From positions 1-64,000 of the forward strand of contig JAJYTD010000019.1 of NCBI GenBank assembly GCA_021793235.1: DNA of 64,000 bases, given 5' to 3'. Under the pieces are notes generated by a model that ran no database searches, was not told the origin of the DNA, and saw only the letters and a program-made list of their open reading frames with translations. Below are positions 33,621-52,414 of the stretch, piece by piece. The position numbers were made by a program, and so were the translations under genes. Each line of letters begins with the position of its first letter. Position 1 is the stretch's first letter. The DNA comes from Actinomycetes bacterium. Lineage in GTDB: Bacteria > Actinomycetota > Actinomycetes > Streptosporangiales > Streptosporangiaceae.

Positions 33621-34589
33621 ATGCGGATCGGCTACAAGCTGCTCGCCGAGGGCTACTCACCGCAGGAGATGGTCCGCCAAGCGGTGCGCGCCGAAGAGGT
33701 CGGCTTTGACTTCGTCGAGGCCAGCGACCACTACCACCCGTGGCTGGAGGAGCAGGGCCACTCCGGATTCGTCTGGTCGATCCTTGCCGCCATCGCCGCG
33801 AATACCGAGCGCATCCGCCTCGCCCCCGGGGTGACCTGCCCCTTCATCCGCTACCACCCGGCCATCGTGGCGCAGGCGGCGGCCACGACGGCGCTGCTCT
33901 CCAATGACCGGTTCTTCCTCGGACTGGGAGCGGGCGAACGGCTCAACGAGCACGTCGTGGGCCAGGGCTGGCCGGCCGTGCGGCAGCGACACGCGATGCT
34001 GCGGGAATCGCTGCAGATCATCCGCTTGCTGTGGAAAGGCGGATACCAGTCCTTCGACGGCCGCTACCTGACGCTCGAAGACGCCCAGGTGTTCGACCTG
34101 CCAAAGACCCCGCCCCACATCGTCGTGGCCGGCAGCGGCCCGTCTTCGGCCCGGATCGCCGCCGAACTGGGCGACGCGCTCTTCGGTACGACCCCAGACC
34201 CCGACCTGGTGCGTGCCTACGCCGATGCCGGCGGCACGGGGGCGAAGTACGGGGAGGTCCCTCTTTCCTGGGCCCCCGACGATGACACCGCCCTCGCCTC
34301 GGCCCGCGCAATGTTCCGGTTCGCCCTTACCGGCTGGAAAGTGCAGTCGGAGCTGCCCAACCCGGTCCACTTCGCCGCCGCCACGGAGCTCATCGACAAG
34401 GGCGACATGAGCAAGACCTTCGGTTACGGGCCGGACGCCGAACGCCACCTGGCCGTTGCGCGGCAGTTCGCCGAGGCCGGTTTCGACCGGCTCGTGCTGG
34501 TCAACGTCGGCCCCGATCCGGACGGTTTCTTCGACTTCTTCGCCGCGGAACTCGCGGAGCCGCTGCGCGCGCTCACCCCCGGCTCTTAA
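33621..34589 (+). CDS. LLM-class F420-dependent oxidoreductase
   Basis: This is a 322-aa TIM-barrel protein of the luciferase-like family (MRIGYKLLAEGYSPQEMVRQ, FVEASDHYHPWLEEQG, APGVTCPFIRYHPAIVAQ, FLGLGAGERLNEH, PHIVVAGSGPSSARIAAELG). The pattern matches F420-dependent glucose-6-phosphate dehydrogenase-like enzymes (TIGR03557-type). It transfers hydride between F420 and an unknown substrate. It is convergent with crtY, with a 17-bp overlap of the gene ends, so it is not in the crt operon. Confidence 0.9.
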   Translation: MRIGYKLLAEGYSPQEMVRQAVRAEEVGFDFVEASDHYHPWLEEQGHSGFVWSILAAIAANTERIRLAPGVTCPFIRYHPAIVAQAAATTALLSNDRFFLGLGAGERLNEHVVGQGWPAVRQRHAMLRESLQIIRLLWKGGYQSFDGRYLTLEDAQVFDLPKTPPHIVVAGSGPSSARIAAELGDALFGTTPDPDLVRAYADAGGTGAKYGEVPLSWAPDDDTALASARAMFRFALTGWKVQSELPNPVHFAAATELIDKGDMSKTFGYGPDAERHLAVARQFAEAGFDRLVLVNVGPDPDGFFDFFAAELAEPLRALTPGS

Positions 34590-35790
34590 CGCGGACACCC
34601 GCTCTGCGGCTGCGGCGGACCAGGGCGCGCCAGGCCTGCTCGACGGTTGTGGCCGACATGGGCAGGAGCGGCGTGGTGGCGCCGAGAGCGAGTTCGCGGA
34701 GCAGTGTGGAGCGCCCGTCCAGGAAGTCCAGGACATCGGGCAGCGGGGTTCGGTGGAAGAGCCGGGCGAAGAAATCCGCACCGTCGAGCCGGCCGGTGTC
34801 GAGCGCGCGCAGTAGGACCGCGTCCATCGCCAGGTGCCGCCGCCGGTGCGGTACCGGGGGCACGGGCGTACCGCCCCGGGTCAGCGCGTCCACGACCGCG
34901 GCGGTCTGCCGCTGGATTCCGCTGAACGTGTAACCGGTCGAGGGCCGGGTCGCGCCCCCGGCTGCGCCGATGCGGAACACGCGGCGCCCCGCCCGGGTGC
35001 GAAAACGCGCGTCGGTCATAGGGATGACGCCCTGCTCGGTGGAGGTCACCGTGAAGTCCTTCAGGCCCAGCACCCGGCCGGTGTAGTCGCTCAGCGCGGC
35101 CTCGTATCCGGCGTCGTCTAAGATCTCCCGGGTGAACTCGGTGTACTCCACTAGCGCGGCACGCACCGAAAACGGCAGGACATAGCCGAACCCCACACCA
35201 TTGCCCGGCTGGGGGGTGCGCAGGTCCATCAGCGTCGCACTGTGCGGTGTGAAGGCGTCCGTATCTGTGCGCAGGAACCAGCCGCGAAAGTGCTGGAACA
35301 GCGTCGTACCCGCTGGCGGGAGGGATGTGGGCGGACGGGAGTCGAAGACCCAGCGCGCTCCGATCTCGATCGGCTCGCCATTAGCGTCCACCGCGCGGAC
35401 GACAGCGCGTTCGGCACCATCCTCGATCCCGTTCACCACCGCACTGATTTGTGCGACGCGGCCGTCCAGCCCTGAGCGCACATATTCCTCAACGTCGGTG
35501 GACCGCAGCATCTTGTACACGAACGGAGCCGCGGAGGAGGCACGGTGCCGCCCATCGGGCCCGATCACCGCGAGCCGCTCCCAGCGCGCCGCCAGGACCG
35601 GGTCCCAGGGCCCGCCACCGCGCTCCCAGAAGCACCAGGTGCGTACGGGCGATCGCGGTGCCCCCGGTGGCGGCTCCACCAGCGCGATGTCGGCAATGTC
35701 GGCGCCCCGGACGTTCGCCTCCGCCAGGCCGCGGGTAAGGGAGAGCCCAGCGGCGCCGGCGCCCACGACGACCACGTCGAACTCGCGCAT
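34573..35790 (-). CDS. crtY: Lycopene cyclase
   Basis: This 405-aa flavoprotein has an N-terminal dinucleotide motif (VVVVGAGAAGLSLTRGLAEA), the FQHFRGWFLRTDTDAF segment, a YVLPFSVRAALVEYTEFTRE block and GAAGGATRPSTGYTFSGIQR, all typical of CrtY-type lycopene beta-cyclases. It cyclises lycopene ends to beta-rings. ATG 35790 (MREFDVV) is preferred; ATG 35802 is possible. It is divergent from crtT, with a promoter region of about 58-97 bp between. The gene order crtY/crtT/crtU matches the crtYTU set known from Streptomyces griseus. Confidence 0.88.
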   Translation of the reverse strand: MREFDVVVVGAGAAGLSLTRGLAEANVRGADIADIALVEPPPGAPRSPVRTWCFWERGGGPWDPVLAARWERLAVIGPDGRHRASSAAPFVYKMLRSTDVEEYVRSGLDGRVAQISAVVNGIEDGAERAVVRAVDANGEPIEIGARWVFDSRPPTSLPPAGTTLFQHFRGWFLRTDTDAFTPHSATLMDLRTPQPGNGVGFGYVLPFSVRAALVEYTEFTREILDDAGYEAALSDYTGRVLGLKDFTVTSTEQGVIPMTDARFRTRAGRRVFRIGAAGGATRPSTGYTFSGIQRQTAAVVDALTRGGTPVPPVPHRRRHLAMDAVLLRALDTGRLDGADFFARLFHRTPLPDVLDFLDGRSTLLRELALGATTPLLPMSATTVEQAWRALVRRSRRAGVRVKSRG

Positions 35791-35848
35791 GCCGACCAGC
35801 ATGGCACGGGCGTTGTGCACACATCCACAGCAGCACGGACGGGAGATC

Positions 35849-36586
35849 ATGCGCGTTTCGGTACGGGCCATGCAGGAGAGGGGAGCGGTGACCGGGGAAT
35901 TCGACCGGGCTGCTGCGGCCTATGACCGGCTTGTGGGCGCCAACCCCGGCTACCACCGGCACTTGAGAATGTCGGCCCGGCGGCTCGGCCTGCCACGCGA
36001 GGGTGCCGGCATGCGGATACTGGATCTGGGCTGCGGTACGGGCGCATCGACAGCGGCGCTGGTCCGTGTGCTGCCGCGGGCGGAGACCATTGGGGTGGAC
36101 GCCTCCGCCGGCATGCTCGCCGTCGCCCGGTCCAAGCGCTGGCCGTCCGGGGTGCGGTTCATCCACGCGCGTGCCGAGGACCTGACGACCGATGACCTGG
36201 ACGGGCCGGTCGACGCGCTGTTCGCCGCCTACCTGCTGCGCAACTGTCTTGACCCCGATAGCGCGCTCGCCACGATGTGCTCCCTGCTGCGCCCCGGCGG
36301 GCGGCTCGCGCTGCACGAGTACTCGGTGGCCGACTCCGCCGCGGCCCGTGCCGTGTGGTCCCTGGTGTGCTGGAGTGTGATCATCCCCCTCGGCCGCGTT
36401 CTGACCGGCCGCGCCGACCTGTACCGGTACCTGTGGCGCAGTGTTGTGGAGTTCGACGGCGCAGCCGGGCTGCGGCAGCGGATGCGCGCGGCCGGGTTGG
36501 CGGACGTGCGCACCGTGCCGTTGCCCGGATGGCAGCGCGGCATCGTGCACACATTCCTCGGTCGCACAACGGGAGGTGCGCAGTGA
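35849..36586 (+). CDS. crtT: Carotenoid-cluster class I methyltransferase
   Basis: This protein is about 245 aa from ATG 35849 (GGGAGA upstream); GTG 35888 (VTGEFDRAAAAYDRLVGANP) is an equally good start. The SAM-binding site ILDLGCGTGASTAALV and motif II/III (GVDASAGMLAVARSK, LLRPGGRLALHEYSV) are clear, in the UbiE/COQ5-like style. In crtYTU clusters CrtT is assigned to methylation in the isorenieratene branch, with its exact step unsettled. Its stop overlaps the crtU start, so the two are co-translated. Confidence 0.8.
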   Translation: MRVSVRAMQERGAVTGEFDRAAAAYDRLVGANPGYHRHLRMSARRLGLPREGAGMRILDLGCGTGASTAALVRVLPRAETIGVDASAGMLAVARSKRWPSGVRFIHARAEDLTTDDLDGPVDALFAAYLLRNCLDPDSALATMCSLLRPGGRLALHEYSVADSAAARAVWSLVCWSVIIPLGRVLTGRADLYRYLWRSVVEFDGAAGLRQRMRAAGLADVRTVPLPGWQRGIVHTFLGRTTGGAQ

Positions 36587-38163
36587 CGCCGCACAGGGCC
36601 GGGCGCGATATCCGCGCGGAACCGCTGGTACCGCCCGCACCGCGCGGTCTCCGGCCCGCCACCGCTCCGCGGGTCGCGGTGGTGGGCGGCGGTATCGCCG
36701 GGCTCGCCGCGGCCACCGCGCTGGCCGAACGCGGTGTGGGAACCGTGCTCATGGAGCGCGATGCCGGACTCGGCGGGCGACTGCGCGGCTGGCCCATCAC
36801 ACTGCAAGACGGCTCGGCGGCCACCATGACCCGGGGCTTCCACGCGTTTTTCCGGCAGTACTACAACCTGCGCTCTCTCCTGCGCCGTGCCGACCCCGAT
36901 CTGGGTATGCTCACTCCGCTTCCGGACTACCCGCTCCTGCACGCCGATGGCGCGCGGGACCGGTTCGCCGGGCTGCCGTCCGCACCGCCGTGGAACGCAC
37001 TGGCGTTCGCCGCCCGCAGCCGCGGATTTCCCCTCCGCGAGGCAGCCGGCGTCAACATCGCCGCGGCACTGCAGCTCCTCGACGTGGACGTCCCAGGGAC
37101 CTACCTGCGGCTGGACCACATCGACGCGGTGGAATTCCTGGAGCGTGTGCGTTTCCCGCGCAGCGCCCGGCACCTGGCGTTCGAGGTGTTCTCCCGGAGT
37201 TTCTTCGCCGATCCGCGGCTGCTGTCGGCCGCTGAGCTGGCGACCATGTTCCACATCTACTTCCTCGGCTCCAGCGAAGGCCTGCTGTTCGACGTGCCGC
37301 GGTCTCCGTTCCCGCAGGCACTGTGGCATCCCCTCACCGACCACCTGGAGCGGCAGGGCGCCGAAATCCGCACCAGCGCTCCGGTCGCTGCCGTCGAACC
37401 CGGTAACCGGAGCAGGTTCGCGCTTCGCAGCGGCGACGGAGCAGTGGAGGAGTACGACGCCGTGGTGCTGGCCACCGACATCGGCGGGTTGCGCGCGCTG
37501 GCGCGGTCATCCCCGTGCCTGGCCTCTCCGGAGTGGCGGAAGAACATCGAGCGGCTACCGAGCGCTCCCCCCTTCCTGGTGTCGCGCCTGTGGCTGGACC
37601 GGCCCGTGCGACCGCACCGGCAGGGCTTCCTCGGCACCGGCGGGTTTCCCACACTGGACAACATCAGCGTGCTGGAGCGCTATGAGGATGAGGCGGCCTC
37701 GTGGGCTCGGCGCACCGGCGGGTCGGTCGTGGAGCTGCACGCCTACGCCCTTCCTGAAGGGTGCGACGAACGCGCCGAACACGCGCGTTTGATCTCCCAA
37801 CTGCACCGCGTCTACCCGGAGACGGCCTCGGCCCGCATCGTTGACGAACGCACCGAACTGCGCGCCGATTGCCCGCTGTTTCTCCCCGGCGCCTTCCAAT
37901 CCCGGCCCGCGATCCGCACCCCCGACCCCTGGCTGGTCATGGCGGGCGACCACGTCCGCGTGGATCTGCCGGTCGCGCTCATGGAACGCGCGGCGACCAG
38001 TGGCTTCCTCGCCGCCAACGTGCTGCTGCACCGCTGGGGCATGCCCGGCCACACCGTGTGGAGTGTCCCCCGCCGCGGCCGGATGTCCACGGCGCGCGCA
38101 CTCGCGAAGTGGGCCCGCAGCGGAATGAAGAGCGGCCGCGGTTCCCGCGCCCGGCGGCCCTGA
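36583..38163 (+). CDS. crtU: CrtU-type carotene desaturase/methyltransferase (isorenieratene-synthase-like)
   Basis: This 526-aa FAD protein from GTG 36583 (GGGAGG upstream; GTGA overlap with crtT) has the motif VAVVGGGIAGLAAATALAER, the MTRGFHAFFRQYYNLRSLLR block conserved in CrtU, and a C-terminal FAD block with WLVMAGDHVRVDLPVALMER. CrtU converts beta-ring ends into aromatic phi-rings by desaturation and methyl migration, giving isorenieratene-type pigments. Some CrtU proteins carry a Rieske domain; here a separate Rieske gene follows on the opposite strand. Confidence 0.85.
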   Translation: MTPHRAGRDIRAEPLVPPAPRGLRPATAPRVAVVGGGIAGLAAATALAERGVGTVLMERDAGLGGRLRGWPITLQDGSAATMTRGFHAFFRQYYNLRSLLRRADPDLGMLTPLPDYPLLHADGARDRFAGLPSAPPWNALAFAARSRGFPLREAAGVNIAAALQLLDVDVPGTYLRLDHIDAVEFLERVRFPRSARHLAFEVFSRSFFADPRLLSAAELATMFHIYFLGSSEGLLFDVPRSPFPQALWHPLTDHLERQGAEIRTSAPVAAVEPGNRSRFALRSGDGAVEEYDAVVLATDIGGLRALARSSPCLASPEWRKNIERLPSAPPFLVSRLWLDRPVRPHRQGFLGTGGFPTLDNISVLERYEDEAASWARRTGGSVVELHAYALPEGCDERAEHARLISQLHRVYPETASARIVDERTELRADCPLFLPGAFQSRPAIRTPDPWLVMAGDHVRVDLPVALMERAATSGFLAANVLLHRWGMPGHTVWSVPRRGRMSTARALAKWARSGMKSGRGSRARRP

Positions 38164-38188
38164 GACCACAGCCCAACTCTCCCGGACG

Positions 38189-39196
38189 CTAGCCCGGCCA
38201 GTTGCCGCTGGTGCGCAGAGTGTAACGGCGTTCGGCGTAGGCGAGGTCGTCACGCCACAATCGGCGGGCGGCCGCCCGTATGAAGGGCCTGACCGCAGGC
38301 GCGATCCGGCGTACAGCACCGAAACCCGCTCGCTCCGAAGTAGCGATCGTCGCCTCGATCACGGCCGTACGCGGCACTCCCGAACCGTCCACACCCAGCG
38401 GTGTGGCGTGCGTCTCTACGGCACTGCCCGTTCCTTCCCCTTCGATGATGTGCATGACGACAGTGCGCGGCTCGGGACAGGTGAACGCGGCGCGCACCGG
38501 TACGCCCCACCGTCCGGCCACCTTGAACGCCACCTCGACCACCATCCGGTCGGGATCGGGCGCGGGCCCATCTGGGACCTCGGTGACACGCAGCCTCACG
38601 AAGGAGTGGGGGTGGAACCACGATCCGTGCCAGGGGTCGAGCCGGTTGGCGACGACATCCTCGGGCTCGCACCGCCCCGCCATGCTCTCCACCGCCGCGA
38701 GCGCCCTGGCCGCATCAGGGCGTTCCGGCAGCACCGGCCGGGGCAGGGACTCCTCCCCGCCCGCTTGGTCCAGCCGCACCCAGACGAGCACGCCGTCATC
38801 GTGCACGGGAAACGGGGTCCAGCCGGGAAAGCCGTCGCTGTCCAGCGCCAGGCCGTGCCAGCGGCAGATCAGCCGCCCTTCCCGGACCGCGCCCCTGCAC
38901 AGCGGGGCTCTCAGGTGCGGGCAGGCTCCCGGTGCCGCGTGCACGGTACCGTCGGAGCCGCGCCAGGCGACGACCTCGGTTCCCGCGATGACCCGGCCGA
39001 AAGGGCGGTCCGCGCGCACCTCGGCGGCGGCGGCGAGCACGAACCAGTTGCCCGATGGTCGCGCGAGCGCCCGTTTCAGCGCGGCACCGATGACACCCGG
39101 CGCTGCGTCGCGCCAGGTCGGCTGCTGCTTCTCCCATGTGGAGGCGGGCAGGCGGCGCAGCGGTGTGCGGCGTGGGGCGGGGTCCGGAAGGCTCAT
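38189..39196 (-). CDS. Rieske [2Fe-2S] protein of the carotenoid locus
   Basis: This 335-aa protein has a Rieske centre C92-x-H94 (ACPHLRAPL) and C111-x2-H114 (CRWHG) after a N-terminal region ending RPFGRVIAGTEVVAW. The C-terminal half (DPWHGSWFHPHSFVRLRV, TRTAVIEATI) is a DUF5914-like domain. It probably supplies electrons or performs an oxidation in aromatic-carotenoid formation. It sits 22 bp upstream of crtB on the same strand and convergent with crtU, so by position it belongs to the locus. Confidence 0.85.
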   Translation of the reverse strand: MSLPDPAPRRTPLRRLPASTWEKQQPTWRDAAPGVIGAALKRALARPSGNWFVLAAAAEVRADRPFGRVIAGTEVVAWRGSDGTVHAAPGACPHLRAPLCRGAVREGRLICRWHGLALDSDGFPGWTPFPVHDDGVLVWVRLDQAGGEESLPRPVLPERPDAARALAAVESMAGRCEPEDVVANRLDPWHGSWFHPHSFVRLRVTEVPDGPAPDPDRMVVEVAFKVAGRWGVPVRAAFTCPEPRTVVMHIIEGEGTGSAVETHATPLGVDGSGVPRTAVIEATIATSERAGFGAVRRIAPAVRPFIRAAARRLWRDDLAYAERRYTLRTSGNWPG

Positions 39197-39217
39197 AGGG
39201 CGGTCCTCTCTGCTGCC

Positions 39218-40162
39218 TCAGGGGCCGGGAGCGGTCAGCCGGGCGGTGATGGCCCGCCCCAGCGCGGGCAGGGCGACCTGCACCCGACGGGCTCCGGACA
39301 CTCTGTGGCGCCGGGTCCACACGTCGTAGTCGGCGGCCTGGATCTCGTCCAGGATGCCCCGGTAGAGCCGTAGGGCGGTGCCGACACACGGGCGCGAGAC
39401 CGGGTGCAGCATCGCGATTCCGGGTTCGGCCTTTCGGTAGACATCCCGGTTGGCCGCGGTGAGCTCGGCCAGCGCGGAACGTACGCGCGGGTGCTGGCCG
39501 CGGGTGCGCCGACAGTGCTGCAGCAGATCGCGGTCGACACCGTGCGCGCCCAACACATCAGCGGGCAGATACACCCGACCGCGGTCCAGGTCCTCGGCCA
39601 CATCACGGAGGAAGTTGGTGAACTGGAACGCCTCTCCCAGCGCGGCGGCGTGCGGGGCCGCCTCATCACGCGGCACCGAGGTGCCGAGGACAGGCAGGAC
39701 CTGCAGACCGATCACCGCTGCCGACCCGTGCATGTAGCGGCGCAGATCGGCGTAATCGGTGTAGGCGGCGCCGGTGAGGTCCATACGCATCGACTCCAGG
39801 AAAGCTGTGAACAGGGCCGGGTCGATGTCGTAGCGAACGGCGGTGTCGGCGACCGCGCAGACAACGGGATAGTGGGCCGGGGCACCGTCCAGGGCCGCAC
39901 ACAGGTCGGCGTCGATCGCATCGACCAGCGCCGAGCGCCCGTCGACGGCGCCCTGTGGCGCATGCCCGTCGACGATGTCGTCCACCCATCGCGCGAACCC
40001 GTAGAGGGCGTGAATGGCGGGGCGACGCGCCGGCGGCAGCACACGGGTCGCGAGGTAGTAGGTGCGTCCGTGGTGCGCGTGCAAGGCGCGGCACTGAGCA
40101 TAGGCGGTGCGCAGCTCCGGTTCCGTGATACCTGCGGCGTCGAGTTCGGCTGTGGCCCTCAT
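39218..40162 (-). CDS. crtB: Phytoene synthase
   Basis: This is a 314-aa squalene/phytoene synthase. The two Asp-rich motifs ARWVDDIVDG and NFLRDVAEDLDRGRVYLP bind the diphosphates through magnesium. It joins two GGPP molecules to phytoene. ATG 40162 overlaps the crtI stop as ATGA, so crtI and crtB are coupled. No crtE (GGPP synthase) is in the window, so the precursor must come from elsewhere. Confidence 0.93.
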   Translation of the reverse strand: MRATAELDAAGITEPELRTAYAQCRALHAHHGRTYYLATRVLPPARRPAIHALYGFARWVDDIVDGHAPQGAVDGRSALVDAIDADLCAALDGAPAHYPVVCAVADTAVRYDIDPALFTAFLESMRMDLTGAAYTDYADLRRYMHGSAAVIGLQVLPVLGTSVPRDEAAPHAAALGEAFQFTNFLRDVAEDLDRGRVYLPADVLGAHGVDRDLLQHCRRTRGQHPRVRSALAELTAANRDVYRKAEPGIAMLHPVSRPCVGTALRLYRGILDEIQAADYDVWTRRHRVSGARRVQVALPALGRAITARLTAPGP

Positions 40163-41682
40163 CACCGGCTCCCGGCCCGAGGTATCGGCGCTATGCGTGC
40201 GGCGGCGAGCTTGCCTGATATCAGAGCGGTCGGCAGGCCGACCCCCGGTGTCGTTCCGCATCCGGCCAGCACCGCGTTGGACACCCCGGCCACCAGATTG
40301 CGCGGTCGGAAGGGCCCCGTCTGGGCGAGGGTGTGCGACGTCGCGAACGGTGTGCCGAACGCGAGTCCTTGGCGCTCCCAATCCAATGGTGTGGCCAGGT
40401 GCTCGGTGACGATGGCCGCCCCGAAGCCGTCCAGTCCCCGCTCTTCAAGCGTGCGGACGATCTCATCGCGGTAGCGGGGCGCCGCGGTGCGCCAGTCCGG
40501 GCCGCCCGCGCGCAGGTTGGGGCACGGGGCCAGGACGTAGTACAGCTCATGGCCGGATGGGGCGAGTGCCGGATCTGTCGCGGTCGGCCGGGTGATCAGC
40601 AGCGATGGATCGCTCATGGTCCTTCCCTGCCGGGTGATTTCGTCGAAGGTGCGGTCCCACGCCGCGCCGAATGAGATCGTGTGGTGCTCCGTCCGGCCCC
40701 ATGACCGGTCGACTCCGGCGTGCAGCACGACCGCCGATGGTGAGAAGCGCAGCGGGACCGGCCGCCACGGAACACGGCCGAGCAGCCGGTAGGACATGGG
40801 CAGGTCGGGGGTGAGCACCACCGCGTCGCAGGCGATCCGCTCCCCGTCTGCGGTGATCACGGCGCTGACACGATCGCCGCGGCGCTCCATCCGGGTAACG
40901 GTCTCGTTGAAGCGGACCGCGGCACCGGCCTTCGCCGCGGCACCGGCCAGCGCGTCTCCCAGCGCCCGCATCCCCCCGCGGGGAAAGAACACTCCGGCCA
41001 CCGTGTCCATGTAGGCGATGACGGCGTAGGCTGCCAGCGCCCGCCGCGGCGGCACCCCCGCGTACAGGGCCTGGAAGGAGAAGATCCGCTGGAGGCGCTC
41101 GTCGGAGAGGAACCGGCTGATGGCCGGGGCCAGGCGGCCGAACCCGCCGAGGACTGCCAACCGGACGAGCTCGGGCGACAGCAGCTCCAGCGGCGAGTCG
41201 AAATTCGTGTCGATGAAGCGGCGCATCTCCAGTTCATAGAGGCGCCGCAGCCACTCCCGCAGCCTCAGGTACCCGGCCGCCTCGCGCGGCCCGGCCGCTC
41301 GCTCCACCTCCTCGGCCATGGTCTCGGCATCGGTGTGCACGTCGATGGTGGAGCCGTCGGCAAATGCCGCGCTGTAGGCCGGGGCCAGCGGTACCAGGTC
41401 GAGCCGGTCGCGCACGGACTCACCCACCGCCGACAGGGCCTCATCGAGCAGTGTCGGCATGGTCAGCACGGTGGGTCCGGTGTCGATCCGAAAGCCGTCG
41501 ATATCCATGCGGCCGGCGCGCCCGCCCGGGTGCGGGTCGCGCTCGACAACGGTGACCTCGCGGCCCGCGCCGAGCAGGTGCAGAGTCGCCGCGAGCCCGG
41601 CCATCCCCGCCCCCACCACGATCACGTGCTCCGTGCGTCCGGGCACCGCACGGAGACGGGCTGTCGTCCTTCCGATGGCCAT
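40162..41682 (-). CDS. crtI: Phytoene desaturase
   Basis: This 506-aa FAD enzyme opens with HVIVVGAGMAGLAATLHLLG and PHPGGRAGRM and ends with the CrtI block NLVAGVSNAVLAGCGTTPGV, GLPTALISGKLAA. It introduces the four double bases needed to turn phytoene into lycopene. ATG 41682 has GGGAG at a good distance; the ORF is open to 41910, but the extra part is leader-like noise. It is first in the leftward unit crtI-crtB-Rieske and divergent from idi. Confidence 0.92.
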   Translation of the reverse strand: MAIGRTTARLRAVPGRTEHVIVVGAGMAGLAATLHLLGAGREVTVVERDPHPGGRAGRMDIDGFRIDTGPTVLTMPTLLDEALSAVGESVRDRLDLVPLAPAYSAAFADGSTIDVHTDAETMAEEVERAAGPREAAGYLRLREWLRRLYELEMRRFIDTNFDSPLELLSPELVRLAVLGGFGRLAPAISRFLSDERLQRIFSFQALYAGVPPRRALAAYAVIAYMDTVAGVFFPRGGMRALGDALAGAAAKAGAAVRFNETVTRMERRGDRVSAVITADGERIACDAVVLTPDLPMSYRLLGRVPWRPVPLRFSPSAVVLHAGVDRSWGRTEHHTISFGAAWDRTFDEITRQGRTMSDPSLLITRPTATDPALAPSGHELYYVLAPCPNLRAGGPDWRTAAPRYRDEIVRTLEERGLDGFGAAIVTEHLATPLDWERQGLAFGTPFATSHTLAQTGPFRPRNLVAGVSNAVLAGCGTTPGVGLPTALISGKLAAARIAPIPRAGSR

Positions 41683-41939
41683 CGGGTGTCTCCCGTCATG
41701 GTCGGCCGTGCGGCCCGTGCGTACTGACGGGCCGCTCCGACACCGAGATTCCCCATTTCCTCTCTGTGAATCTTTCCTTACTGTGAGTTGTTTTCTGTGT
41801 GCCGCTGCCTCCGGACCCACCGAGACCGGTAAAAGCGCGGCCGCCGTACACGCCCATGCGCTCCCGGGTTCCTTGTTATGCGGGCATCCCCTGGTAGTCC
41901 TGGGATTCAACGGCCGTCGACACAGAAGCGAGGCGCAAC

Positions 41940-44697: not shown

Positions 44698-45375
44698 ATG
44701 GTCGACCTTCCCGAGAGGCCGAATGACTCCTCCCGGTTGGCCCGCAATCCGCTTCGGGAGCAGATTCGCCGCGTACTGGTCGATGGGTTGCTGTCAGGCC
44801 GCTGGCGACCCGGAGAACGGATCGTCGAGCGCCGCATCGCCGCCGAACTCAATGTGAGCCAGGCGCCAGTGCGGGAAGCACTGCGCGAACTGGAGACGCT
44901 GCGACTGATCGAATCCGTCCCCAACAAGGGGGCCCGGGTTCGCGACTTCGGTATCGCCGACATGGCCGAAATCTATCCCGTCCGCGCAGGTCTCGAACTG
45001 GTAGCGGCCGAACTCGCCGCACCCCGCCTGGCCGCCGATCCGCGGCCGTTGGAGCATCAGGTGCAGGCGCTCCGCCGGGCGACCGCCGACCAGGACGTGG
45101 AGGAACAGATCAAGCGCAGCGTGGAGTTCCATCGGGAGATCGTCCGGGCCGCGGACAACAGTGTGCTGTCCCACACGTGGGAATCCCTGGGAGTCGAGGT
45201 CTGGACCAGGCTGTCAGTGCGCTGGCTCAATATGGAGCTGCACGCGAAGGCCGCCGACCACGCCCGGATCGCCGAGGCGTTTCGCGACGCGGATCCCGAG
45301 GTCGGCCGGATGGTCCGGGACCACGTGCTCAACTACGTCGAAGCGGCGATGCAGACACACGGTGCTGTGAGCTGA
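44698..45375 (+). CDS. GntR-family FCD regulator adjacent to 2-oxoacid dehydrogenase genes
   Basis: This 225-aa protein has a winged HTH (NPLREQIRRVLVDGLLSGRW, NVSQAPVREALRELETLRLI) and an FCD domain with metal-ligand-like EFHREIVRAADN, ADHARIAEAFRD and VRDHVLNYVEAA. ATG 44698 is used; the longer ORF to 44182 is shadow. It lies upstream of the PDH-type operon on the same strand, with a palindromic operator candidate at 45440 between, so it likely regulates it in response to an organic acid. Confidence 0.88.
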   Translation: MVDLPERPNDSSRLARNPLREQIRRVLVDGLLSGRWRPGERIVERRIAAELNVSQAPVREALRELETLRLIESVPNKGARVRDFGIADMAEIYPVRAGLELVAAELAAPRLAADPRPLEHQVQALRRATADQDVEEQIKRSVEFHREIVRAADNSVLSHTWESLGVEVWTRLSVRWLNMELHAKAADHARIAEAFRDADPEVGRMVRDHVLNYVEAAMQTHGAVS

Positions 45376-45439
45376 CGCGGGGTTCTGCTGGTTCACACCC
45401 TTCTTGGCGAGGTACGTCCGGGGTCTTCCCTAAAGTCAT

Positions 45440-45460
45440 ATTGATCGATCATCGATCAAT
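45440..45460. promoter_or_regulatory. Operator candidate for the PDH-type operon
   Basis: ATTGATCGA-TCA-TCGATCAAT is a perfect 9-bp inverted repeat with a 3-bp centre in the 365-bp gap before E1alpha, and is typical in size of FadR-family sites. The rest of 45376-45740 holds no gene. Confidence 0.6.
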
Positions 45461-45740
45461 ACATAGAGTGTGCGCGACGCACGTCACACCTGACGTGCAG
45501 CGTGAGCCACGCGCAACGAACCGGAACGTGACTCATGCCCGGGAATGGGCAGGGTCACACCGGGAAACGAGCGTAATGAGAGTTCTGCCACGACAACTCG
45601 ACCAGCCACTCCTGCGCCCCGCCGTTGAGCCCGGCGTCGGCGCGCATGCCCTGGCCTCGCCCGAACAGCAGGCCACGGCACCGGCCTTCTCCGGGTCCAC
45701 CGGCCCGGAAGAGGCCGACTCGTACGTAGAAAGGCACACC

Positions 45741-46844
45741 ATGGCTGACACGGCCAAGCCGAAAGGCGGCGGCACCACCAGAAGTACGGGCGGCCGTCGG
45801 CGGAGCCGGAAGGACTCCCCCTCGAACATCGCCGACGAGCAGCCGAAGGTGCTTCTCGAGTACTACCGGCAGATGCTGCTGATCCGCCGATTCGAGGAGC
45901 GCACCGGCCAGGCCTACACCCAGGCCCGCATCGGCGGCTACTGCCACCTGAACCTGGGCGAGGAAGCCACCATCGTCGGCCTCATGACCGCCCTGCAGGA
46001 ACGCGACTACCTCTTCACGAACTACCGCGACCACGGCTACGCGATCGGCAAGGGCATGAGCCCGCGCAGCGTCATGGCCGAGCTCTACGGGCGCTCCACC
46101 GGTGCGGCCAAGGGCTGGGGCGGTTCCATGCACATGTACGACACCGAGACCCGCATGCTCGGTGGATACGGCATCGTGGGCGGACAGCTTCCGCTGGCCA
46201 CCGGAGCCGCCCTCGCGATCTCCTACCGCGGCGGCGACGAGGTCGTGATGTGCCAGATGGGCGACGGCACCACCAATATCGGCGCCTGGCACGAATCGCT
46301 GAACATCGCTTCGCTGTGGAACCTGCCCGTCATCTTCGTGGTGATCAACAACTACACCGGCATGGGTACGCCTGTCGAGGCATCCTCGGCAGAGCCGGAA
46401 CTGTACAAACGGGGTTCGGCGTTCCGCATCGAAGGCGTCCGGGTTGATGGACGCGATGTCCTCGCCGTCCGCGACGCAGCCGCCAACCTGGTCGAACGCG
46501 CCCGCTCCGAGCAGCGGCCGTTCCTGCTGGAAGCCACCAGCTACCGGATGAAGGGCCACTCGGTCGTCGATCCCGCCAAGTACCGCACCAAGGAGCAGGT
46601 CGAGGAGGCCAGGTCCAACGACCCGATCACCGCCTTCGAAGCCACGTTGGAGAAGGCCGGGATCCTCACCGAGGAGGCCAAGCAGGAGATCGCGGATTCC
46701 GTGCGCGAGGAGGTCGCCGACGCGGCCGAGTTCGCGGAGAACAGTCCGCACCCGGAAGTGTCCACGCTGTTCGACTACACCTATGCCACCCCTGTAGCCA
46801 ACGAGTCGCGCCGGATGCCCGCCGACCCGGTTTTCGCCGAGTAG
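45741..46844 (+). CDS. pdhA: 2-oxoacid dehydrogenase E1 component, alpha subunit (pyruvate/branched-chain/acetoin type)
   Basis: This 367-aa protein has the thiamine-diphosphate motif GDGTTNIGAWHESLNIASLW...NN and the substrate-loop sequence YRMKGHSVVDPAKYRTKEQV. A basic N-terminal tail (GRRRSRKDS) precedes the fold. With E1beta and E2 next door it forms an alpha2beta2 E1 that decarboxylates a 2-oxoacid. The sequence type fits pyruvate or acetoin dehydrogenase best. No E3 gene is in the operon, so lipoamide dehydrogenase comes from elsewhere. Confidence 0.88.
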   Translation: MADTAKPKGGGTTRSTGGRRRSRKDSPSNIADEQPKVLLEYYRQMLLIRRFEERTGQAYTQARIGGYCHLNLGEEATIVGLMTALQERDYLFTNYRDHGYAIGKGMSPRSVMAELYGRSTGAAKGWGGSMHMYDTETRMLGGYGIVGGQLPLATGAALAISYRGGDEVVMCQMGDGTTNIGAWHESLNIASLWNLPVIFVVINNYTGMGTPVEASSAEPELYKRGSAFRIEGVRVDGRDVLAVRDAAANLVERARSEQRPFLLEATSYRMKGHSVVDPAKYRTKEQVEEARSNDPITAFEATLEKAGILTEEAKQEIADSVREEVADAAEFAENSPHPEVSTLFDYTYATPVANESRRMPADPVFAE

Positions 46845-46859
46845 ACAAGGAACGGGTAC

Positions 46860-47858
46860 ATGTCCGTGATCACCTACCGCCAGGCACTGCGCGACACGCT
46901 GCGCGCCGAGATGCACCGCGACGAGAACGTCTTCCTCATGGGCGAGGAGATCGGTGTCTTCGAGGGCTCGTACAAAATCACCGAAGGACTGCTCAAGGAG
47001 TTCGGCGAGCGCCGCGTGCGCGACACCCCCATCGCAGAAGAAGGATTCGTCGGCGCGGCGATCGGCGCGGCCATGCTCGGCCTGCGTCCGGTCGTCGAGA
47101 TCATGACGATCAACTTCTCGCTCATCGCGATCGACCAGATCATCAACCACGCCGCCAAGATCTACGGCATGTTCGGCGGGCAGACCAGCGTTCCGATGGT
47201 CATCCGTACACCGGGCGGTGGCGGCCAACAGCTCGGTGCGACGCACTCACAGAACATCGAGCTGTTCTACTCCTTCGTCCCCGGGCTGAAGGTGCTCGCG
47301 CCGAGCACCCCGGCCGAAGCCGCCGCCATGCTGCGGGCCGCGATCCGCGACGACGACCCGGTCCTCTTCCTGGAGAACCTGGGCCTGTACAACTCCAAGG
47401 GCGAGGTTCCCGAAGGCGACGAAACCGTTGCCGAGATCGGCCGCGCCGCGGTCACCCGCGAAGGCACCGACATCACCCTGATCGGCTACTCGCGCATGGC
47501 CATGGTCGCCGGCCAGGTGGCGGAGGCACTGGCCGCCGAGGGCATCAGCGTCGAGGTCGTCGACCTGCGCAGCCTCCGGCCACTGGACCGCCAGACGATC
47601 GTCGAGTCGGTGTGCAAGACCGGCTCCGCGGTGATCGCCGAGGACGACTGGCTCACCTACGGCATCGGCGCCGAGATCGCCGCCTCCATCCAGGAGGGTG
47701 CGTTCGACTACCTCGACGCCCCGGTGCGCCGGGTCGCCATGGCCGAGGTGCCCATGCCCTACGCGAAGCCGCTGGAGTCGGCGGCGCTGCCGTCGGTCGA
47801 GTCGATCACCACCGCCGTCAAGGAGACCCTGAACGCCGTTGGTCGGCGGGTCGGGTAA
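46860..47858 (+). CDS. pdhB: 2-oxoacid dehydrogenase E1 component, beta subunit
   Basis: This 332-aa protein (MSVITYRQALRDTLRAEMHR, FLMGEEIGVFEGSYKITEGL, TPIAEEGFVGAAIGAAMLGL) is a canonical transketolase-like beta subunit with the C-terminal LIGYSRMAMVAGQVAEALAA domain. It starts 15 bp after E1alpha and ends 16 bp before E2, so the three are one transcript. Confidence 0.92.
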   Translation: MSVITYRQALRDTLRAEMHRDENVFLMGEEIGVFEGSYKITEGLLKEFGERRVRDTPIAEEGFVGAAIGAAMLGLRPVVEIMTINFSLIAIDQIINHAAKIYGMFGGQTSVPMVIRTPGGGGQQLGATHSQNIELFYSFVPGLKVLAPSTPAEAAAMLRAAIRDDDPVLFLENLGLYNSKGEVPEGDETVAEIGRAAVTREGTDITLIGYSRMAMVAGQVAEALAAEGISVEVVDLRSLRPLDRQTIVESVCKTGSAVIAEDDWLTYGIGAEIAASIQEGAFDYLDAPVRRVAMAEVPMPYAKPLESAALPSVESITTAVKETLNAVGRRVG

Positions 47859-47874
47859 AGGGGATAAGCACACG

Positions 47875-49188
47875 ATGAGTGAGATCTACATGCCGCGCCT
47901 CTCCGACACCATGGAGGAGGGCGTCATCAGCTCCTGGGTGAAGAAGGTCGGTGACAAGGTCACGACAGGCGATGTCCTGGTCGAGATCGAAACCGACAAA
48001 GCCGTTATGGAGTACGAGGCCTACGAGGACGGCTACCTCGTCAAGCAGTCGGTCGGCGAAGGCGAGACCGTGCCCATCGGCGCCGTGATCGGCGCCATCG
48101 GCGAGAGCCCCGATGCTGTACCGGCGGACTCGGGCAACGGCGGCGCACAACCCGCGGCCGAGCCCGCCACCGGGGCTGTCGATCCCCAGCCCGAACCGGC
48201 CGCCGAGCCCGCGGCCGGGATTCCCCGGCAGGCCCAGGCGGCCGAGGAGGCCGAGGAGGCCGAGGCGCCCGCGCCCGAGGGACCCGCGCGCCCGCGCACA
48301 TCGCCGCTGGCCCGTCGGCTGGCCAAGGAGTACGGCCTCGACATCGAGACGATCACGGGGTCCGGCCCGAAGGGCCGGGTGGTGCGCGCCGATATCGAGG
48401 CCGCCGCGAAACAGCGGCAGGAGGGCGCACCAGCGCAGGAGCCGGCCCCTGCCGCGCAGCCCTCCGCAGGCGCACCCCAGGGTGCGTTCGACGACGGCCG
48501 TGCCTCGGAGGAACTCACGGTCAGCAACGTGCGCAAGGTGATCGCACGCCGCCTTACCCAGAGCAAACAGGAGGTCCCGCACTTCTACCTGCGACGCACC
48601 ATCGACGCCGAGGCGTTGAAGGCGTTCCGCGCGCAGATCAACGAACAACTGGAGAGCACCGGCGTCAAGGTCAGCTTCAACGACCTGATCGTCAAGGCCG
48701 CGGCGACCACGCTTCGCCTGCATCCCGCGGTGAACAGGTCCTGGATCGACGACAAGCTGCTGCAGCACGGCCGGGTGAACGTCGGTGTCGCTGTCGCGGT
48801 GGACGCCGGTCTGGTCGTTCCTGTCCTGCACGATACCGACAAGCTGCCGCTGTCGGAGATCGCGACCAAGAGCCGCGAGCTCGCGGGGCGGGCACGCGAG
48901 GGCAAGCTCAAACCCCAGGAGATGAGCGGCGGCACGTTCAGCGTGAGCAACCTGGGCATGTTCGGCATCGACAGCTTCTCCGCCGTCATCAACCCGCCTG
49001 AGGCCGCGATTCTGGCGGTAGGCGCGATGCAGCAGCAGCCGGTGGTGCGCGATGGCGAGGTCGTCGCCCGCAACACCATCGCGCTGGAGCTGTCGGTCGA
49101 CCACCGGGCGGTCGACGGCGCCGTGGGCGCGGCCTTCCTCAAGGAGCTGGCCGAGATCCTGGAGAGTCCCATGCGGATCATCCTCTAG
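47875..49188 (+). CDS. pdhC: 2-oxoacid dehydrogenase E2, dihydrolipoamide acyltransferase
   Basis: This 437-aa protein has one lipoyl domain with lipoyl-Lys42 (VEIETDKAVMEYEA), an Ala/Pro/Glu-rich linker (about 85-140), a peripheral-subunit-binding domain (TSPLARRLAKEYGLDIETIT) and the catalytic domain ending in the active-site motif LSVDHRAVDGAVGAAFL. It transfers the acyl group from lipoamide to CoA and forms the complex core. It is the last gene of the operon. Confidence 0.92.
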   Translation: MSEIYMPRLSDTMEEGVISSWVKKVGDKVTTGDVLVEIETDKAVMEYEAYEDGYLVKQSVGEGETVPIGAVIGAIGESPDAVPADSGNGGAQPAAEPATGAVDPQPEPAAEPAAGIPRQAQAAEEAEEAEAPAPEGPARPRTSPLARRLAKEYGLDIETITGSGPKGRVVRADIEAAAKQRQEGAPAQEPAPAAQPSAGAPQGAFDDGRASEELTVSNVRKVIARRLTQSKQEVPHFYLRRTIDAEALKAFRAQINEQLESTGVKVSFNDLIVKAAATTLRLHPAVNRSWIDDKLLQHGRVNVGVAVAVDAGLVVPVLHDTDKLPLSEIATKSRELAGRAREGKLKPQEMSGGTFSVSNLGMFGIDSFSAVINPPEAAILAVGAMQQQPVVRDGEVVARNTIALELSVDHRAVDGAVGAAFLKELAEILESPMRIIL

Positions 49189-49411: not shown

Positions 49412-50005
49412 TTGGCGGCGGGCCCTGAGACGGTCGGTCCGGGATCCAACCGGGCCCGGATCGTGGCGGCGGCCTACAACGCGGTCGCGCGGACAGGGCT
49501 GGCCGGGCTGCGGGTGCGCTCCGTGGCTGGGGAAGCCGGCGTTACCCACGCCACTCTGCTCTACTACTTCAAATCCCGCTCCGCGCTGCTGAACGCGGTC
49601 GTGGATCATGCTGTCTACGACCGGATCGCCGTCCCCCTGGTCGAAGACGCGGAGCCGATGCCCGCAGCGGACGAACTCTCCGCCCTGCTGCACGGTCTAT
49701 CTCGGGAAGCGGAGGAGGATCCGCGCCAGCCGGCGGTGCTGCTGGAGATCCTGCAGCGCGGCCAGGAACACGGATCCGAAGCCGCGATGGACCGATACTT
49801 CCGGACATGGCAGCAATACACGACCGATCTGCTGCGGCGGGGAACGCTCGAGGGCGGGTTCCGGTCAGACCTGGATCCCGAAGTGACCGCACGGATCATC
49901 GTCCAGTTCTCCCTGGGACTGCAGACCCGCTCCCCTATTACAGCGGAGCAGCGCGGGGAGGCCATAGAGCAGCTTCTCGCCTTCCTCGCCCCAATGCGCC
50001 CCTGA
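49412..50005 (+). CDS. TetR-family regulator
   Basis: This 197-aa protein starts at TTG 49412, chosen for GGAGG six bases upstream. HTH region: RARIVAAAYNAVARTGLAGL, AGEAGVTHATLLYYFKSR. The C-terminal ligand domain is helical (MDRYFRTWQQYTTDLLRRGT). Two perfect palindromes lie between it and the downstream membrane reductase, so it probably represses that unit (and perhaps not itself, as no such site lies before its own start). Confidence 0.88.
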   Translation: MAAGPETVGPGSNRARIVAAAYNAVARTGLAGLRVRSVAGEAGVTHATLLYYFKSRSALLNAVVDHAVYDRIAVPLVEDAEPMPAADELSALLHGLSREAEEDPRQPAVLLEILQRGQEHGSEAAMDRYFRTWQQYTTDLLRRGTLEGGFRSDLDPEVTARIIVQFSLGLQTRSPITAEQRGEAIEQLLAFLAPMRP

Positions 50006-50041: not shown

Positions 50042-50063
50042 TTCTCTACCAGTTGGTAGAGAA
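50042..50063. promoter_or_regulatory. TetR operator candidate 1
   Basis: TTCTCTACCA-GT-TGGTAGAGAA is perfectly symmetrical over 10-bp arms. It lies 42 bp centre-to-centre from operator 2 (four helical turns). Confidence 0.8.
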
Positions 50064-50083: not shown

Positions 50084-50105
50084 CTCTCTACCAACTGGTA
50101 GAGAG
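50084..50105. promoter_or_regulatory. TetR operator candidate 2
   Basis: CTCTCTACCA-AC-TGGTAGAGAG has perfect 10-bp arms and ends just before the Shine-Dalgarno (gaggag) of the next gene. Binding here would block transcription start or early elongation. Confidence 0.8.
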
Positions 50106-50113
50106 GAGTTGTT

Positions 50114-51685
50114 GTGCTGAAAACCATCACATGGCCCGTCCGATCATCCGGGCGGACCGACTCCCGGACGGAAAGGGCCGATACCCGAAAGCGCCCCGCA
50201 ACCAGGCGCCTGCCCCCGTGGCTGCGCAGAACCTTGATCGCCGCGCACGTCACCAGTTCCCTCATGTGGTTCGGACTCGTCGCAGGAGTGCTCGTCCTGT
50301 GCAGCTACGGCTGGGCCACCGACGACCCGGGGACCACCCATGCGGTCTTTCGCTCCTTGGGGCTGTTCGACACCCTGTTCCTGGGCACAGTGAGCTTCGC
50401 GGTCCCGGTCACCGGCCTCCTGCTGGGGCTGGCCACCCCGTGGGGAGTAATCCGATATTGGTGGGTCCTGCTGAAGCTGATGATCACGCTCGCGGTGATG
50501 GTGGCAGGCGCCCTGGTCCAGCACCGGGCCATCATCGCCCTGGACGGCTGGGCGAAGGGCGCCGGTGCCGCCGCTTTGGACGGCACCGCACAGGCCCCCC
50601 TGGAACCGTTTCGCACCCTCACCATCGGTACCGCGGTCGCGGTAACGCTCCTGGTGGTTGCGATCGTCCTCTCCTACGCCAAACCCCTGGGCCCAACGCC
50701 CTGGTTCCAACGCGGCAAGCGCGCGCCCGGCCCCACGGAACCGCAAGGCAACGCCGAACCGGCGGCGGAGCGGATTCCAGTACTGGTCACCGCGGTCGAA
50801 ACGGTGGCCGAGGACACCATCGCCGTCACGCTGCGCCGCGACGGTGCCGCGGACCTGCCGGTGTGGAGCCCCGGCGCACACATCGACGTGGCCCTCCCCT
50901 CGGGCCGGATCCGGCAGTACTCGCTGTGCGGTGACCCCGCCGACCCTGCCACTTACCGGATCGCGGTGCTCCGGGAGCCCACAGGCCGGGGCGGATCCGA
51001 GGAGGTGCACAACCTGGCCGCGCCAGGCGCCCACCTGCGTATCGGACGGCCTCGCAACGCCTTCCCTCTGCGCAGAGCCCCCGCCTATCTCTTCATCGCA
51101 GGCGGGATCGGCATCACCCCGATCCTTCCCATGATCGAAGCGGTGGCGGCACACGGCACCCCATGGCGCCTGGTCTATGCTGCGCGCAACGCGCACCGGA
51201 TGCCCTTCACCGACGCATTGTCCGGTCGGCACCCCCGGCACGTGGTACTGGTCGCCGAGGACACCCACGGCCGCCCCGACCTCCGTTCCGAGCTCCGCAG
51301 CTTGCCACAAGGGGCGATCACCTACTGCTGTGGCCCTCCGGGCCTTATCGACGCCGTCCGCTCCGTACGCGACGCCGTGCGCACCGACGTACCACTGGAG
51401 ACAGAGAGCTTCACCCCGGCCGCTGAGAACTCCGCCGGTGCGGCGTTCGAGATCGAACTGCAGCGATCGGGCGAGCTGCTGAACGTCCCGGCGGATACCA
51501 CGGCACTGGACGTCCTCCGGGAGCAGCGCCCCCACACCCCTTCCTCCTGCGATAACGGCATCTGCGGGTGGTGCGAGCTGAGGGTCATCGCCGGAGACCC
51601 CGACCACCGCGGCGCCGAACCCGGCCGCGACCGGTTCCGCCCGTGCGTCTCCCGCGCCCGCGGCCGATTGGTCGTCGACCTCTAG
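50114..51685 (+). CDS. Membrane-domain-fused FAD/NAD(P) reductase with C-terminal 2Fe-2S ferredoxin (PDR/VanB-like)
   Basis: This 523-aa protein from GTG 50114 has three parts. The N-terminal part (about residues 38-200) has four membrane segments (TLIAAHVTSSLMWFGLVAGV, LFLGTVSFAVPVTGLLLGLA, VLLKLMITLAVMVAGALVQH, TLTIGTAVAVTLLVVAIVLS), similar to DUF2269 proteins. A flavin/NAD reductase follows (RQYSLCGDP flavin site, FIAGGIGITPILPMIEA and YCCGPPGLIDAVR NAD site). The C-terminus is a plant-type ferredoxin with C479, C484, C487 and C511. The order reductase-then-ferredoxin is that of phthalate dioxygenase reductase. No oxygenase gene is nearby. A membrane anchor on this enzyme type is unusual. 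Confidence 0.85.
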   Translation: MLKTITWPVRSSGRTDSRTERADTRKRPATRRLPPWLRRTLIAAHVTSSLMWFGLVAGVLVLCSYGWATDDPGTTHAVFRSLGLFDTLFLGTVSFAVPVTGLLLGLATPWGVIRYWWVLLKLMITLAVMVAGALVQHRAIIALDGWAKGAGAAALDGTAQAPLEPFRTLTIGTAVAVTLLVVAIVLSYAKPLGPTPWFQRGKRAPGPTEPQGNAEPAAERIPVLVTAVETVAEDTIAVTLRRDGAADLPVWSPGAHIDVALPSGRIRQYSLCGDPADPATYRIAVLREPTGRGGSEEVHNLAAPGAHLRIGRPRNAFPLRRAPAYLFIAGGIGITPILPMIEAVAAHGTPWRLVYAARNAHRMPFTDALSGRHPRHVVLVAEDTHGRPDLRSELRSLPQGAITYCCGPPGLIDAVRSVRDAVRTDVPLETESFTPAAENSAGAAFEIELQRSGELLNVPADTTALDVLREQRPHTPSSCDNGICGWCELRVIAGDPDHRGAEPGRDRFRPCVSRARGRLVVDL

Positions 51686-51859: not shown

Positions 51860-52414
51860 ATGGCGGAGCGTGCCACCGTACCCGCGGCGGCCACGTGGGG
51901 GCTGCTCGTCGCCTGGGCGCTGCACGATGCGGAAGAGCTCGCCACAATGCCCGGATGGGTACGGCGGCGGCGTTCTCACCTCGAGGCCCGGCTGCCCTGG
52001 GTGCCCTCCTCGGTGTGGGACCGGATGGACCTCTCCCGCGCCCACACCACTACCGCGATCGCCCTCGTGGGCGGGATCGTGGCGGCGGCCGCGGCCGATG
52101 GGGCGCGCACGGGCGGCCGCAGCCCTCTCTACCAGGGGGTGCTGACCGTTTTCGGGTTGCACACGGTCACCCACCTCGCGCAGGCTGCCCTGACTCGCGG
52201 CTATACGCCCGGGGTCGTGACCGCGCCGCTGATCGCCGCGCCGTTCTCCCTGTGGGCGTGGCGGCGACTGCGCCGTGCGGGTGTCCCCGCGACCGGGCCC
52301 GGGGTAGGTGCCCTCGCGCTCCTGCCCGTGGTCGCCGGCGGGGCACACGGCCTGGCGGGCCTCATCACCCGGGCCGCGCACCCCCGCACGACGAGGCGCG
52401 GCCCCACACCTTGA
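51860..52414 (+). CDS. HXXEE-type membrane protein
   Basis: This 184-aa protein from ATG 51860 has the HXXEE signature as ALHDAEELATMPGWVRRR within the first membrane segment, followed by HTVTHLAQAALTRGY and further hydrophobic stretches (GVVTAPLIAAPFSLWAW, GALALLPVVAGGAHGLAGLI). The family is uncharacterised; the conserved His/Glu set suggests metal binding. It follows the fused reductase by 174 bp and may share its control. Confidence 0.75.
   Translation: MAERATVPAAATWGLLVAWALHDAEELATMPGWVRRRRSHLEARLPWVPSSVWDRMDLSRAHTTTAIALVGGIVAAAAADGARTGGRSPLYQGVLTVFGLHTVTHLAQAALTRGYTPGVVTAPLIAAPFSLWAWRRLRRAGVPATGPGVGALALLPVVAGGAHGLAGLITRAAHPRTTRRGPTP

Follow-up and report, generated by a model that had tools for sequence, protein, structure and literature searches.

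The gene at 50114-51685 of the window (the whole stretch of 64,000 nucleotides that was analysed) encodes, in one open frame, a four-helix DUF2269 membrane domain fused to a reductase of the phthalate dioxygenase reductase (PDR) type. This fusion is real and is not an assembly join, it is rare, and its comparison with other families brings out a kinship that is new here: judged from profile alignments, the DUF2269 domain is a relative of HemJ, the b-type haem protoporphyrinogen oxidase. A literature search found no description of a DUF2269-reductase fusion in papers naming DUF2269. The reading that we favour, with a probability of about 0.45, is that of a membrane-bound NAD(P)H reductase under TetR control, in which electrons would pass through FMN, a 2Fe-2S cluster and a b-haem to a quinone or another membrane acceptor.

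The fusion gene and its occurrence

The fusion gene and its domains are the following.

50114-51685, plus strand: fusion of a DUF2269/HemJ-like membrane domain with a PDR-type reductase (523 aa, one open frame)
50216-50692, plus strand: four-helix membrane domain, residues 35-193 (Pfam, hydropathy, AlphaFold2 and conservation)
50246-50248, plus strand: codon for H45, a candidate haem ligand that pairs with the conserved His in the first helix of HemJ
50474-50476, plus strand: codon for K121, which pairs with the Lys in GWLHAK of HemJ
50774-51073, plus strand: flavin-binding barrel with RQYSL (267-271)
51086-51388, plus strand: NAD(P)-binding domain with GGIGITP (330-336) and CCGP (405-408)
51455-51658, plus strand: plant-type [2Fe-2S] domain with Cys479, 484, 487 and 511 (Fer2 Pfam match and motif)

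The gene begins with a GTG codon, immediately 5' of which stands an AGAGGAG-like ribosome-binding site. The Pfam match to DUF2269 extends over residues 42-191 (E 3.1e-8), covers model positions 4-150 of 150 and reaches 34.3 bits, above the family cut-off of 28; it is followed by matches to NAD_binding_1 (327-416) and Fer2 (448-515). Hydropathy and the AlphaFold2 model give four long helices (residues 35-68, 72-107, 116-154 and 163-188) and then the PDR fold. The confidence of the model exceeds 90 in most of the flavin and NAD domains and is moderate in the membrane part (59-85 by block). The frame, Pfam and the model therefore confirm the initial annotation, which had placed a four-TM DUF2269-like domain ahead of a PDR-type reductase. 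It had also named a frameshift or an assembly error as what would speak against such a fusion, and neither was found. Third-codon-position G+C, taken by blocks, stays high (0.78-0.93) on passing the junction and gives no hint of a frameshift, and homologues with the same domain order in other genera and families show that two genes have not been joined by assembly.

The reductase half carries all the marks of the PDR/VanB type, namely a flavin barrel with R-x-Y-S-L, GGIGITP and a C-terminal C-x4-C-x2-C...C. The residues R267-L271, G330-P336 and C479, C484, C487 and C511 are invariant or nearly so in 26 aligned sequences. The flavin of this class, in solved relatives, is FMN and not FAD. Over nearly its whole length the reductase part matches the reductase domains of CYP116B P450s (6LAA and 6KBH, E 5e-57) and phthalate dioxygenase reductase itself (2PIA, E 1.3e-47), and on these matches the fusion belongs, by sequence, to the PDR-type reductases. 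The [2Fe-2S] loop from Cys487 to Cys511 (window 51548-51646) has 23 residues, as against 25-29 in 25 relatives, and all four Cys are retained; the short loop of the window protein could have an effect on the potential of the cluster or on docking.

A strong reductase match is present in 144 of the 297 genomes of the family, the whole fusion in only three of them (that of the window, G305 and G124). Further fusions, in Glycomyces albidus and Streptomyces acidicola, were found among the best 80 loci of a GTDB scan that used one genome per species and two reductase peptide patterns. A contig scan with a single sequence gave no matches, and the alignment-based scan was productive. The domain search in other genomes that had been proposed for this gene has thus yielded the same fusion in four more, and the fusion is carried by at least five genomes from several actinobacterial families.

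Identity to the window protein is about 40-46% for the other fusions, some of which have extra N-terminal helices. Elsewhere, the DUF2269 and reductase halves are separate genes, and stand-alone DUF2269 relatives are 30-40% identical to the N-terminal domain of the fusion. The tree built from the reductase sequences, with long branches for the window protein and some others, does not reject a single clade of the five fusions (p-AU 0.80); it is compatible with a single origin, without proving one against several.

The membrane domain and its kinship with HemJ

The best conserved residues in 39 homologues are R38, H45, W52, G54, G101, G111, W117, V118, K121, K190, P191 and G193, and the conserved stretches of the membrane domain are W110-G111, W117-V118-x2-K121 and K190-P191. 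Of these homologues, 38 keep H45 and 37 keep K121. With its positively charged N-terminus and four helices, the protein would have both termini, the reductase and residues H45, K121 and K190 on the cytosolic side; the sole invariant His of the membrane domain in the 39 homologues would thus be near that side.

Two actinobacterial proteins (L193, 1483-1959, and L194, 1492-1956) score above the Pfam cut-off for UPF0093 (HemJ) and also above that for DUF2269, and so the two families overlap. Another, L196, exceeds the DUF2269 cut-off and has a sub-threshold match to UPF0093. Weak UPF0093 matches, below the cut-off of 34.2 bits, are given by the stand-alone homologue in the window's own genome (18.7 bits) and by the Glycomyces fusion (L048, 14.5 bits); in the window protein, Pfam gives no match to UPF0093 (PF03653) at E 0.1. 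The own genome's stand-alone DUF2269-like gene (L162, 9616-10113; contig C46 near 93.6 kb) is located near a response regulator gene.

When the fusion-type DUF2269 domains were compared with HemJ by hhalign, a score of 37.0 over 133 columns was obtained, as against 12.9 for a reversed alignment and no more than 19.6 for 60 shuffles that keep hydropathy. The alignment pairs H45 with the first-helix His of HemJ, W117-x3-K121 with its GWLHAK stretch, and K190-P191 with the KP at its end. The HemJ set was taken from plasmid records, several of them annotated as hemJ, and an approximate Synechocystis HemJ was the tblastn query, for retrieval only. By these profile comparisons DUF2269 and HemJ are homologous and constitute one superfamily, and the membrane domain of the window protein is a relative of HemJ, not a member of the HemJ family.

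HemJ was reportedly described by Skotnicova and colleagues, in 2018, as a b-type haem protein, and we take its first-helix His to be the haem ligand. We know of no experiment that shows haem in any DUF2269 protein. Structure searches with the membrane domain alone returned generic helical bundles only, with designed proteins and cytochrome c' among them (Z up to 13.9, which is usual for bundles). Foldseek with the same domain gave no match at E < 0.001, and the DUF2269 profile found nothing convincing among PDB sequences. A distant similarity to DUF2269 has been described for DUF989, the domain of a membrane urate oxidase (PMC4562309).

Adjacent regulator and predicted control

The region upstream of the fusion gene contains the following features.

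45177-49188: 2-oxoacid dehydrogenase genes E1 alpha, E1 beta and E2, directly upstream of the TetR gene (a Rieske/DUF5914 gene lies beyond)
49421-50005, plus strand: TetR-family regulator (Pfam TetR_N, 2.9e-8; start uncertain, longest ORF from 49052)
50042-50063, no strand: operator-like palindrome 1, TTCTCTACCA-GT-TGGTAGAGAA, with fully complementary 10-nt arms
50084-50105, no strand: operator-like palindrome 2, CTCTCTACCA-AC-TGGTAGAGAG, with fully complementary 10-nt arms, abutting the ribosome-binding site

No E3 gene for the 2-oxoacid dehydrogenase was seen among the scanned genes. The two palindromes between the TetR gene and the fusion gene are perfect over 22 bp. With up to two mismatches, their core occurs at these two sites only in the whole genome, and its chance expectation in the window at three mismatches is 0.11. 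The nearest TetR relatives found, about 35% identical and from three other genera, each have upstream a conserved 20-bp palindrome, TTTCTATCA-N2-TGATAGAAA, shaped like those of the window (L241, 2114-2133; L242, 1427-1446; L243, 2106-2125). Directly 3' of each of these relatives is a gene that was assigned by eye as FAD-monooxygenase-like. The fusion gene is probably repressed by the adjacent TetR protein through the two palindromes.

Regulators are also found at other fusion loci. For instance, a divergent TetR gene faces the G124 fusion across a gap of 68 bp, which holds a 13-nt inverted repeat, and MarR, MarR and PadR genes adjoin the fusions of G305, G124 and S. acidicola. The presence of local regulators beside the fusions suggests an inducible role, perhaps in xenobiotic or redox stress.

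Proposed electron path, competing readings and known systems

In the mechanism that we favour, NAD(P)H would reduce FMN and FMN would reduce the [2Fe-2S] cluster, from which single electrons would reach a b-haem near the cytosolic face, held by H45 and perhaps also by K121. The haem would then reduce menaquinone or another membrane or extracytoplasmic acceptor. TetR, bound to the two palindromes, would keep expression off until an aromatic or quinone-like inducer is present. Haem binding, the order of the electron carriers, the acceptor, the activity and the inducer are all predicted. Several points speak against this mechanism. HemJ oxidises a porphyrinogen, whereas the reductase module of the fusion would push electrons in; the membrane domain has no structural match beyond generic bundles and its models are moderately confident; the window copy has an unusually short [2Fe-2S] loop; and the fusion would also make sense with a quinone site or with a mere anchor.

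The least unlikely of the alternatives is a one-chain NAD(P)H:quinone reductase, the membrane domain of which would bind a quinone or another small substrate directly and without haem. The conserved face would be cytosolic, beside the reductase, and the distantly similar DUF989 domain of PuuD works on its substrate at the cytosolic side (PMC4562309). However, the homology to HemJ, a b-haem protein, with its conserved His, and the use of haem-type membrane domains in parallel fusions argue against it. In these parallel fusions the PDR module is joined to a ferric-reductase-like haem domain, as found in an Amycolatopsis metagenome-assembled genome (L050, 9050-11377) and in two actinobacterial genomes of 1.6-1.8 Mb (L158, 9995-11536, and L159, 8100-9641); Pfam finds PF01794 in L050 and L158. 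Thus, the PDR module has been joined to membrane haem domains more than once, and this is the best indirect evidence that the DUF2269 domain accepts electrons and does more than anchor the protein. A review of the ferric-reductase superfamily includes a Fer2-bearing architecture (PMC3591440).

It is improbable that the membrane domain acts mainly as an anchor while the reductase serves an oxygenase encoded elsewhere, such as a membrane oxygenase or the Rieske/DUF5914 protein of the window. The genes that bear on possible partners are listed here.

38189-39196, minus strand: Rieske and DUF5914 protein, 11 kb upstream of the fusion in a separate gene cluster
40162-41910, minus strand: amine-oxidase/phytoene-desaturase-like protein, adjoining the Rieske/DUF5914 gene
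51860-52414, plus strand: HXXEE membrane protein (HDAEE), next gene after the fusion (Pfam 5.8e-24)

Soluble homologues of the reductase often adjoin oxygenases (Rieske/VanA genes at 4 of the 35 scanned neighbourhoods, and P450 and luciferase-like genes too), and all three of the family's fusion genomes have DUF5914, as against 35 of 150 family genomes overall. However, the fusion genomes of Glycomyces and Streptomyces lack DUF5914, which weakens the idea of such a Rieske partner, and a mere anchor need not keep H45, W117, K121 and K190 across 39 proteins. Furthermore, no oxygenase is a direct neighbour of the fusion at any of the five loci, so that a conserved oxygenase neighbour, which the initial annotation had seen as evidence against its own proposal, is ruled out. 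Its wording that no oxygenase is nearby holds for the immediate neighbours and has to be qualified for the Rieske/DUF5914 gene. Its suggestion of a membrane acceptor instead of a soluble oxygenase gains support from the kinship with HemJ, the oxygenase-free direct neighbours and the parallel ferric-reductase fusions. The Rieske/DUF5914 gene belongs to a carotenoid-like cluster (window 34573-41910).

The HXXEE gene is located after the fusion as had been described (likely ATG at 51860, about 175 bp past the fusion stop). Its product, which had been put forward as a partner of the fusion, is ruled out as a conserved one: HXXEE is absent from the called neighbouring genes of the other four fusions, and the characterised HXXEE protein MucF is an acylase and not an electron carrier (PMC9112991).

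An NOX-like enzyme, making superoxide or peroxide or reducing ferric iron at the outer face, is the least probable reading, because, although the layout is FRE/NOX-like and Foldseek with the full model matches SpNOX, among others, by its dehydrogenase part, Pfam does not report PF01794 in the window protein, the six-helix ferric-reductase domain with its two His pairs is absent, and a single haem near the cytosolic side, where the one invariant His is found, would not span the membrane.

By being joined in nature to a reductase that is well understood, DUF2269 gains an electron donor, and the kinship with HemJ points to a likely cofactor; this makes the function of a widespread membrane domain directly testable. 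The fusion would also inform on HemJ. A broader and more tentative idea than the favoured b-haem reductase is that domains of the HemJ/DUF2269 type may be membrane haem electron carriers in general, and that the fusion would then form a class of its own among NAD(P)H-driven membrane reductases. If true, there would be a second way, besides that of NOX enzymes and ferric reductases, to couple a flavin/NAD(P)H module to membrane haem.

The fusion shares features with several known systems. HemJ matches it in the four-helix membrane domain, the first-helix His, the GW-x2-K motif and the C-terminal KP, but HemJ is a stand-alone protein without a reductase module and oxidises protoporphyrinogen. 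DUF2269 (PF10027) proteins are also stand-alone, and by the Pfam cut-off the N-terminal domain of the fusion is one of them. The order of modules and the motifs of the reductase are those of 2PIA and of the CYP116B reductase part; however, these are soluble or joined to a P450, have no membrane domain and serve an oxygenase. In PuuD, a membrane redox domain (DUF989), with distant HMM similarity to DUF2269, is joined to an electron carrier, but this protein has eight helices and a cytochrome c and its electrons come from urate (PMC4562309). Ferric reductases and NOX enzymes combine, in a layout like that of the fusion, a membrane haem domain with a cytosolic NAD(P)H/flavin module, and the NOX enzymes hold two b-haems by His pairs (PMC11564096). 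Whereas their membrane part is the six-helix, two-haem FRD domain (PF01794), the fusion has in its place an unrelated domain of the DUF2269/HemJ-like type.
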